A stretch of 64,000 bases of DNA from positions 3,171,181-3,235,180 of the forward strand of contig CP013099.1 of assembly GCA_001447805.1 (NCBI GenBank), in the 5' to 3' direction. Every line of letters begins with the position of its first letter. Position 1 is the first letter of the stretch. The position numbers and the translations under genes were made by a program. This stretch comes from Candidatus Tenderia electrophaga. Its GTDB lineage: Bacteria; Pseudomonadota; Gammaproteobacteria; Tenderiales; Tenderiaceae. Below are positions 6,303 to 10,501 of the stretch, in pieces. Under the pieces are notes generated by a model. It made no database searches, was not told the DNA's origin, and was given only the letters and a program-made list of their open reading frames with translations.

Positions 6303-7976
6303 ATGGATAACCAGCGTCTCATACTATTTTTTGCCCTAGCCTTCATCCTGTTTTTGACGTGGGAGGCATGGCAGGCCGACTACGGTCCGCAACCGGTGGC
6401 CGGCAGCCAGGTAGAGAGCACGGGCGGCGCACCCACCGCCGAGGTCCCGAAAGACGTACCCATCGCGCAGCAGCCGCACAGCGACAGCGCGGCCAAGGCC
6501 GATACCCCGGCGGCGCCCGACACCGGCATGGAGGCCAGCCCCGCCAATCAGCGCATCCATGTGCGCACCGATACCTTTGATATAGAGATCGATACCCGCG
6601 GCGGTGATATTCGTGAGGCCGACCTGTTGGACTACCCGGTCGCCAGCGACAAGCCCGATGAGCCCTTCCGCCTGCTGAAAGACACCCTGCCCAATCTGTT
6701 CGTGGCCCAGACGGGCCTGCTTTCCGACAGCGCGGCACCCGATCATTACGCCAACTTCACTGCCCAGCGCAGCGATTATGAATTAGCGCCCGGTCAGGAC
6801 GAGCTGCGCGTGCCCCTGGTGTGGCAGGACGATAGCGGCATCAAGGTCACCAAGACCCTGGTGTTTTATCGCGGTAGTCATGTCATCGATGTCGAGCAGA
6901 CCATCGAGAACAACTCGGCCGACGCATGGCAGGGCCGCCAATACCGCCAACTGCAGCGCAGCCGCCCCGACGGCAGCGGCGAGTCCGCCTTTATCTATAC
7001 CTACACCGGCGGTGTCATTTACAGCGAGGCGGAGAAATACGAAAAGATCGAGTTTGACGACATGGCCGAGCAAAGTCTGAGCCGTGACATCAACGGCGGT
7101 TGGGCGGCCATGATTCAGCACTACTTCCTCGGCGCCATCATTCCGCCCCCCGATCAGACTAACCATTTCTATACCAAGGCGCCGGGGGACGATCGCTTCG
7201 TGCTGGGGCTGGTCTCGCCCAGTGAGTCCGTGGCGCCGGGCCAGAGCGCCAGTTTCACCACCCGCTTTTTCGTCGGACCCAAGGAGCAGGATGTACTGGA
7301 AGACCTGGCCGAAGGTCTGGACCTGACCGTGGACTACGGCATGCTCACCGTCATCGCCAAGCCGCTGTTCTGGGTGCTGGACTGGTTCCACGGCCTGTTC
7401 GGCAACTGGGGCTGGGCCATCATCATGGTGACGCTGATTATCAAGCTGATCTTCTATCCCTTGTCGGCAGCCAGTTACCGTTCCATGGCCAATATGCGTA
7501 AGTTCGCGCCCAAGATGCAGCAGCTCAAGGAACGCTACGGCGACGACCGTCAGCGCATGAGCCAGGCCATGATGGAGTTGTATAAAAAGGAAAAGATCAA
7601 TCCACTCGGCGGCTGTCTGCCCATGATCGTCCAGATCCCGGTGTTCATCGCCCTGTATTGGGTGCTGCTGGAGAGTGTGGAATTGCGCCAGGCACCGTTC
7701 ATTCTCTGGATCCAAGACCTCTCTATCCGCGACCCCTACTATGTGCTGCCCCTGCTCATGGGTGTCAGCATGTTCGTGCAGCAGAAACTCAATCCGCCGC
7801 CGCCCGACCCGGTCCAGGCCAAGGTGATGATGGCGCTGCCCATCATCTTCACCCTGTTCTTCGCCTTCTTCCCGGCGGGTCTCGTGCTGTACTGGCTGGC
7901 TAACAGCGTCCTCTCGGTGGCGCAACAGTGGTACATTACTGCCAAGATCGAAAAGGCGGCCGAGACCAAAAAATAA
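6303..7976 (+). CDS. yidC: Membrane protein insertase YidC
   Basis: Inner-membrane insertase for Sec-dependent and Sec-independent proteins, including Fo subunit c of the ATP synthase encoded further right. 557 residues. An N-terminal membrane segment (residues 6-22) precedes a low-complexity linker, the periplasmic beta-sandwich domain and the C-terminal insertase core with five membrane segments (from about residue 360, [22 protein letters not shown] onward), including the cytoplasmic loop [33 protein letters not shown]. The tail is short and charged. Confidence 0.98.
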
Positions 7977-7984
7977 TTGAACAA

Positions 7985-8005
7985 GGGCGCCGCCGGCGCC
8001 CTTTT
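7985..8005 (+). terminator. Rho-independent terminator after yidC
   Basis: Perfect 7-base stem GGGCGCC / GGCGCCC with a 3-base loop followed by TTTT. It ends the rpmH-yidC unit 13 bases before mnmE, so mnmE needs read-through or its own promoter inside yidC. Confidence 0.8.
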
Positions 8006-8017
8006 CATTTTGCGACT

Positions 8018-9370
8018 ATGCAAGACAGTAACGACACCATCGCCGCCATCGCCACCCCGCCCGGCCGGGGCGGGGTGGGCATTGTGCGCGTCTCCGGGGC
8101 GCGGGCGCCACAAATCGCCGCCGCCGTGCTGGGCCAATGTCCGGCAGCGCGCCATGCCGCCTATCTACCCTTCCGCGACAGCGACGACAGTGTGTTGGAC
8201 CAAGGCATCGCCCTCTATTTTCCGGGTCCCAACTCCTTCACCGGCGAAGATGTATTGGAACTGCAGGGCCACGGCGGCCCGGTGGTGCTGGACTTACTGT
8301 TGTCGCGGGTGGTGGCCCTGGGTGCACGGCTGGCGCAGCCGGGTGAATTCTCGCGCCGCGCCTTTCTCAACGACAAACTCGACCTGGCTCAGGCCGAGGC
8401 CATCGCCGATCTCATCGAGGCCGCCTCGGTGCAGGCGGCGCGTTCGGCCTTGCGCTCCCTCCAGGGTGAATTCTCGCAGCGCATCCACGCCCTGGTGGAG
8501 GCGATGATCAAACTGCGCATGTATGTGGAGGCGGCCATCGACTTTCCCGAAGAAGAGATCGATTTCCTCTCCGACAGCGCCGTGACCGCACAACTGCAAG
8601 ACCTCATCACCCATCTCAACACCATTCTGGCCGAGGCCCAACAGGGCTGCTTGTTGCGCGAAGGCATGAATGTGGTCATCGCCGGTCAGCCCAATGCCGG
8701 CAAATCCAGCCTGCTCAACCAACTGGCCCAGCGCGAACTGGCCATAGTCACCGAGATCGCCGGCACCACCCGCGATACCCTGCGCCAGGAAATCAGCATC
8801 GACGGCCTGCCGCTGCACATCATCGACACCGCCGGGCTGCGCGACAGTAGCGATACGGTGGAGCGGATCGGCATCGAACGGGCCTGGAGCGAGATCCAAC
8901 AGGCCGACCGGATATTGTTATTAATAGACGACGCCGCCGGAATCACCGCGGCGGATCAGGCCATCATCGACAAGCTGCCCGATGACATCGCCGTCACCGT
9001 GGTGCGCAACAAGATCGATCTGAGCGATTCGCGCGCCGGTGTGGCCGACGGTCCCCTGGGTCAGGAGATCGCCCTTTCCGCCAAGACCGGGGCCGGCCTG
9101 GAACTGCTCAGCCGACATCTGAAACAATGCGTCGGTTATCAAGGCAATGCCGAAGGCAACTTCATGGCGCGCCGCCGTCACGTGGATGCGCTGCGAAGAG
9201 CGCTCGAGTGGGTGCTGCACGGCCAACAAGCCTTACAAAAACACCAAGCCGGCGAACTGTTGGCCGAAGACCTGCGCCTGGCCCAGGAAGCCCTGAACGA
9301 AATCACCGGCGCGTTCGGCAGCGACGATCTATTGGGGCGCATCTTCAGCTCCTTTTGCATCGGCAAGTAA
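8018..9370 (+). CDS. mnmE: tRNA modification GTPase MnmE
   Basis: With MnmG, installs the 5-carboxymethylaminomethyl group on wobble U34 of certain tRNAs. 450 residues from [24 protein letters not shown], the conserved start; the open frame extends upstream over the terminator but without family similarity. N-terminal folate-binding domain, helical domain, then an inserted G domain: GQPNAGKSS (223-231), DTAGLR, NKID. The C-terminus FCIGK holds the conserved catalytic Cys. Its partner mnmG is normally next door in related genomes but here lies 21 kb away. Confidence 0.97.
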
Positions 9371-9399: not shown

Positions 9400-9445
9400 C
9401 CGTTAGTGTACGTTTTAAAGTTCCGTAATGTGAAAGGAGAACACC

Positions 9446-9733
9446 ATGGCAAACGAAGGCTATCACGAACCCCTCGCCGAACTCTCGGACGAAACCCGTG
9501 ACATGCACCGCGCCATCACGTCACTGATGGAGGAATTGGAAGCGGTGGATTGGTATAACCAACGGGTGGATGCCTGCAAGGACAAAGAACTCAAAGCCAT
9601 CCTGGCCCACAACCGGGATGAAGAAAAAGAACATGCCGCCATGGTGCTGGAATGGATTCGGCGGCGCGACCCATGCTTTGACGAACATCTGAAGGATTTT
9701 CTGTTCAGCGACAAAACCATCGCCCACGATTAA
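9446..9733 (+). CDS. Encapsulated-ferritin-like protein (EncFtn family), no encapsulin partner
   Basis: Ferroxidase-type four-helix-assembling protein; EncFtn subunits form annular decamers that oxidise Fe(II) and usually sit inside an encapsulin shell. 95 residues. The core closely resembles Rhodospirillum rubrum EncFtn from memory: HEPL..L..ET...HRAI.S.MEELEAVDWY and AILAHNRDEEKEHAAM.LEW. Ferroxidase ligands map to E30, E60 and H63, with W36/Y37 next to the site and entry-site acids E29/E32. A clear AGGAG lies before the ATG. The chain stops soon after the second helix region (FLFSDKTIAHD), without the long tail carrying an encapsulin-targeting peptide, and no encapsulin gene is in the window. 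The stop is 3 bases from that of the convergent dioxygenase gene. Confidence 0.88.
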   Translation: MANEGYHEPLAELSDETRDMHRAITSLMEELEAVDWYNQRVDACKDKELKAILAHNRDEEKEHAAMVLEWIRRRDPCFDEHLKDFLFSDKTIAHD

Positions 9734-9736
9734 CGA

Positions 9737-10501
9737 TTATCCAAACTGCACCGAGCGTTTACTAAAGGTAAACAAATCGTAACCGACGGTCGGGAAACTG
9801 GGCGCTTCATCCTCGTCGGCGGCGCCCGCGCTGATCAGCAACGGCCGGAAGTGTTCCGGCGAGGGGTGATTGCGTTGTGCCTCCGGCGCCTCGGTTTCCC
9901 ACGTCAATAAGCGCCGTCTATCCTCGACCAAGGTCTGCGCCACCCAGGCATCGAAGCGGCTGGCCCATTCCGGCGTGGCGGTATAACCGCCGCCCAGGCC
10001 TTCGCGCAGATTGTGGGTCAGCGTGCCGGCGCCGGCAATGATCACCCCCTGCGCACGCAAGGGCGCCAGCCGACGGCCCAGTTCAAACAGGCCTTGATTC
10101 GAAACCCGGGGCAGACTCATTTGCAACACCGGCACATCGGCGTCGGGCCACATGTGCAGCAAGGGCACCCAGACGCCGTGATCCAGGCCGCGCGGGCGTT
10201 GCGGTATCTCTTCATCGAACAGTACACGAATATCTCTCAGCAAGCCCTCGGCACCGGGCGCCGGGTATTGCACCTGAAACAGGGGCGGCGGGAAACCGTG
10301 AAAATCGTAAATCAGTTTGTCATGGCGTCGCGTTTCACCGAAGACCAGCCCCGGTTCTTCCCAGTGGGCTGAGAAGATTAAAATCGCCTTGGGCCTAGGC
10401 AGCGCTTTACCCCAAGCGGCATAGTCCGCGCCGGCGGCCTTATCCAAGGCCAGCATGGGATTGCCGTGGCTGATGAATAGAACGGGCATTTTGTCGGCCA
10501 T
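9737..10501 (-). CDS. ygiD: Class III extradiol dioxygenase, YgiD/DODA type
   Basis: LigB-fold non-haem iron or zinc enzyme; characterised relatives (E. coli YgiD, plant DODA) cleave L-DOPA in vitro, but the natural bacterial substrate is unclear. 254 residues. Metal-binding and catalytic histidines appear in FISHGNP, FSAHWE and LDHGVWVPLLHMWP, plus GAGTLTHNLRE. The C-terminus PTVGYDLFTFSKRSVQFG is typical. It is a single gene facing the ferritin-like gene; nothing nearby suggests a pathway. Confidence 0.9.
   Translation of the reverse strand: MADKMPVLFISHGNPMLALDKAAGADYAAWGKALPRPKAILIFSAHWEEPGLVFGETRRHDKLIYDFHGFPPPLFQVQYPAPGAEGLLRDIRVLFDEEIPQRPRGLDHGVWVPLLHMWPDADVPVLQMSLPRVSNQGLFELGRRLAPLRAQGVIIAGAGTLTHNLREGLGGGYTATPEWASRFDAWVAQTLVEDRRRLLTWETEAPEAQRNHPSPEHFRPLLISAGAADEDEAPSFPTVGYDLFTFSKRSVQFG

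Follow-up and report, generated by a model that had tools for sequence, protein, structure and literature searches.

What does an EncFtn-family protein do in a cell that has no encapsulin shell? The question is raised by a gene in a 64,000-nucleotide stretch (the window) of the genome of Candidatus Tenderia electrophaga, the product of which ends after the ferritin-like core. The initial annotation left the choice between a free ferroxidase ring, a protein served by a shell encoded elsewhere, and a different metal-related job. The locus consists of the following features.

7928-9370, plus strand: mnmE (tRNA modification GTPase), the upstream neighbour, its product named from sequence
9435-9440, plus strand: probable ribosome-binding site, AAGGAG, as read from the sequence
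9446-9733, plus strand: s-FLP gene, encoding a short, tailless EncFtn-family protein of 95 amino acids (PF22277, alignment to NE0167 3K6C, Foldseek)
9737-10501, minus strand: LigB/DODA-type extradiol dioxygenase, the convergent neighbour (PF02900, E 1.1e-29)

The ORF at 9446-9733 starts with an ATG, immediately 5' of which stands the AAGGAG. The true start of mnmE is probably the ATG at 8019, and the GTPase has no functional link to the s-FLP; the order mnmE, s-FLP, LigB is also kept in a close relative, Candidatus Tenderia sp. BWSM_60 (locus L038). The 95-residue product belongs to the Pfam EncFtn-like family PF22277 (E 2.5e-44, 149.4 bits, curated cut-off 27) and scores 136.6 bits against NCBIfam TIGR04535, above the cut-off of 125. 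The latter model is named “encapsulin-associated ferritin-like protein” by NCBI, and it accepts this shell-free protein. Alignment to the EncFtn of R. rubrum, whose ferroxidase and entry-site residues are identified in PMC5012862, places E29, E30, E32, W36, Y37, E60 and H63 of the window protein, all of them present, opposite E31, E32, E34, W38, Y39, E62 and H65. The di-iron ligands (E30, E60, H63 and Y37, corresponding to R. rubrum E32, E62, H65 and Y39) are conserved and both entry-site glutamates, E29 and E32, are intact. The earlier claim that the ferroxidase residues E30, E60, H63, W36 and Y37 are preserved is confirmed by this alignment, as is the absence of a C-terminal encapsulin tail: the chain stops at residue 95 (...LFSDKTIAHD) with no GSL-type targeting peptide, the mark of the FLP-TP class.

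The s-FLP or Non-EncFtn proteins are defined by an EncFtn core that carries neither a long disordered tail nor a recognisable targeting peptide, and the 95-residue window protein is a typical representative of this already described class. The “Non-EncFtn” group, without encapsulin sequence, was named in eLife in 2016 (PMC5012862), and a 2024 review gives the s-FLP name, 3K6C as the structure, and decamers (PMC11202242). The type member, NE0167 from Nitrosomonas europaea (PDB code: 3K6C), aligns with the window protein over 95 of 95 residues (E 7.2e-48), is of equal length and has the same short C-terminus, differing by a Leu in place of W36; it is the best match of known structure, followed by R. 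rubrum EncFtn. The latter (Rru_A0973, an FLP-TP; PDB code: 5DA5) shares the core, the ferroxidase ligands and the metal-entry glutamates, but has a targeting tail and an encapsulin interior, while the window protein has neither; in addition, Asn38 and Cys44 of the window protein are Asp and Ser, respectively, in R. rubrum. The predicted structure, a monomer model with a pLDDT of 83.9, retrieved 3k6c_A as the best structural match in Foldseek (82% identity across 90 columns) and gave little that 3K6C had not.

A tail lost by frameshift or truncation was considered and rejected, since the convergent gene on the opposite strand starts directly after the window gene and more than 100 homologues have the same length and C-terminus. 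A degenerate gene was likewise rejected, since the homologues keep the metal ligands invariant (91 of 91 short homologues in the bacterial-class sample, W36 being kept in 90 of the 91).

The genome of the window organism (3.76 Mb, two contigs, rated 100% complete) contains a single EncFtn-family gene according to the family search. The full-genome encapsulin search that had been suggested was negative: in the complete genome no match to the encapsulin family PF04454 was found at E≤10 (two candidates were scored, and control genomes gave signal), nor any to PF19307 at the same threshold, with a weak control for the latter (one genome, below its cut-off). The encapsulin shell gene, normally adjacent, that characterises FLP-TP systems is thus absent, and the remark that no encapsulin gene lies nearby extends to the whole genome for family 1 and PF19307-type encapsulins. 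A shell overlooked elsewhere in the genome was rejected on the same grounds, neither PF04454 nor PF19307 having matched.

The suggested survey of short EncFtn genes covered 377 genomes of the window organism's bacterial class, from which the genes were retrieved and read. PF22277 scored above its cut-off in 112 genomes, and all 20 genomes with an encapsulin are among these 112. Short genes only, with no encapsulin, are found in 86 of the 112 genomes; targeting-tail genes only, with an encapsulin, in 14; and a short gene, a tailed gene and an encapsulin together in five (in one of these, G021, the tail SLGVGSL was assigned by eye, outside the scripted tail pattern). None of the short-only genomes among the 112 has a shell, and every targeting-tail gene is accompanied by an encapsulin, which adjoins it. 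Wherever a short form and an encapsulin coexist, a separate partner stands beside the encapsulin, tailed in five genomes and a fusion in the sixth. The correlation of tail and shell is thus class-wide. Fifty further genomes were reached through s-FLP loci, and 49 of them have no encapsulin; the sole exception carries an encapsulin fragment. Because the 86 short-only genomes are without encapsulin and tailed genes always adjoin one, the window protein most probably acts in the cytosol without a shell, and the idea of a shell encoded elsewhere fails both in its own genome and in 86 of 86 short-only genomes, as far as family 1 and PF19307-type encapsulins are concerned.

The fusion, found together with a short gene in one of the 112 genomes, is an EncFtn core in frame with a C-terminal part of encapsulin (L223/L133, G166:C227) and is possibly a deletion product; this genome also carries a normal s-FLP. 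Four survey genomes have broken or partial s-FLP genes (L224, L225, L226 and L202). Two others, without encapsulin, encode EncFtn-family proteins of 118-122 amino acids (L143 in G313 and L175 in G067) with longer Lys/Ala/Pro-rich tails and no targeting motif. The encapsulin fragment among the 50 further genomes (L244, in the genome of L077) adjoins a second, partial EncFtn-like ORF of its own.

We propose, with a probability of about 0.62, that the window protein is a free-standing EncFtn-family ring that oxidises cytosolic Fe(II) under O2 or peroxide stress without a shell, the iron being passed on or released. Of the options offered by the initial annotation, the free ferroxidase ring is the best supported, a shell being absent from its own and from the short-only genomes, and neither an encapsulin with evidence of loading nor a loss of metal ligands in homologues was found. 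Two subunits would build one di-iron ferroxidase centre, and five such dimers would form an open ring, judging from the decamers of NE0167 and R. rubrum EncFtn. In a cell that lacks a shell the ring would not feed a mineral compartment; by homology, Fe(II) would be bound and oxidised in the cytosol, and gene neighbours in other genomes suggest that Fenton-active iron may thereby be removed under O2 or peroxide stress. The oxidised iron might be released or go to another store. The genome encodes one Dps-like and two bacterioferritin-like proteins, their genes in a row in that order (L240 555-2422; C1 about 2424241-2425961), although a hand-over to them is speculative. On its own, R. rubrum EncFtn acts as a ferroxidase but cannot mineralise iron, for the storage of which it needs the shell (PMC5012862); for a shell-free homologue the best reading is therefore a cytosolic ferroxidase or iron buffer, the product of which goes elsewhere. 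The free R. rubrum ring, however, aggregated once iron was added (PMC5012862), so that the true task of such a ring may be something other than shell-free oxidation.

The proposed connection to peroxide stress comes from other genomes. Neighbours, identified by Pfam, were read for 147 s-FLP genes. About 20 of these stand directly between a CCG-domain Fe-S protein on the upstream side and DUF3501 on the downstream side, and rubrerythrin often precedes the group. This neighbourhood is the aerobic-type rubrerythrin cluster RBR-RFO-DUF3501, described as three genes (PMC5114695), into which s-FLP genes are inserted in many related genomes; many loci follow the order RBR-RFO-sFLP-DUF3501, the genes being separated by -8 to about 110 bp. 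By coordinates, an s-FLP lies within 2.5 kb of DUF3501 in 25 of the 75 survey genomes that have both gene families; these 25 genomes come from 16 taxonomic families, and the s-FLP is in most cases part of the rubrerythrin cluster. A catalase stands directly upstream of the s-FLP in four other loci (L057, L172, L176 and L238), one of them in the window's own genus. A search of PMC5114695 found no mention of an EncFtn-type gene or encapsulin, and the literature search found no paper joining s-FLP with the rubrerythrin cluster; the link is new as far as the literature searched shows. Taken together, the neighbours in other species suggest a role in peroxide protection. Against this role count the roughly four fifths of s-FLP genes without such a stress neighbour and the window gene itself, which no stress gene adjoins, its flanks being mnmE and the LigB-type dioxygenase. 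Upstream of 167 s-FLP genes, boxes for Fur, OxyR, LexA, FNR, RpoH, IscR, NsrR, SoxR and MntR showed no excess over shuffles, a few single loci excepted. Since the genome of the window organism is without the rubrerythrin cluster, for this organism we infer the peroxide role.

The same clusters could be read differently, with the s-FLP as a fourth part dedicated to the aerobic RBR-RFO-DUF3501 peroxide-reduction system, for example by supplying or recovering iron for RBR or passing electrons, and not as a bulk ferroxidase. The tightness of the clusters across 16 families argues for this, and so does the co-occurrence of DUF3501 with EncFtn-family genes (75 of 112 genomes with such a gene versus 89 of 265 without; odds ratio 4.0, kinship uncorrected). 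However, 37 of the 112 genomes, the window organism's among them, lack DUF3501 (the family search of its genome found none, and a search without positive control gave no RBR match), and most s-FLP genes, including that of the window, lie outside the cluster, which makes a dedicated component unlikely.

Another metal or redox job, such as metal trafficking, would be marked by two features of the short forms. Cys44 is nearly invariant in these (86 of 91 in the class sample, 161 of 166 overall) versus six of 19 tailed forms, and a His occurs among the last six residues in 83 of 91 (158 of 166 overall) versus three of 19 in the comparable region of tailed forms. Nonetheless, neither the ferroxidase centre nor the entry site shows any change, and since the short and the tailed proteins share ancestry, some of the contrast between them may reflect descent and not function; we regard a job of this kind as quite improbable. 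In a tree of 191 sequences, weakly resolved because it has only 90 columns, 155 short forms make up one branch (SH-aLRT 84). The tree requires four to five switches between the short and the tailed state, at least three of them forced by starred branches, and encapsulin adjacency shifts the same way in three of three independent supported pairs, a number too small for that test to reach significance. Two short forms within a mostly tailed branch (L186 and L217) are likewise without a shell.

Loading into an encapsulin by way of an undefined signal in the short C-terminus, a matter left undecided by the 2024 review, in which the short C-terminus might hold an undefined binding sequence and the short linker would permit encapsulation (PMC11202242), would fit the conserved C-terminus with its His, but is strongly contradicted for the window organism by the missing shell in its own and all 86 short-only genomes and by the separate partner present wherever both occur, and is very improbable.

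The s-FLP class had been named from few sequences; what is added here is a survey answer to the question of s-FLP shells, together with the link to the rubrerythrin cluster. A wider and tentative possibility, which we consider doubtful as a whole, is that shell-free EncFtn rings are a widespread, functionally separate branch recruited to the rubrerythrin peroxide-reduction system as an iron-handling component, with Cys44 and the C-terminal His as functional sites of their own, and with tail and shell gained or lost jointly several times. The naming of shell-free proteins by TIGR04535 would mislead encapsulin surveys. In the bacterial class of the window organism there are about five short forms for every tailed one, and no short form occurs alone with a shell; the EncFtn ring must therefore be useful without a shell, even though the EncFtn that has been studied depends on one to store iron. 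Through the link to the rubrerythrin cluster, this shell-free function becomes testable.
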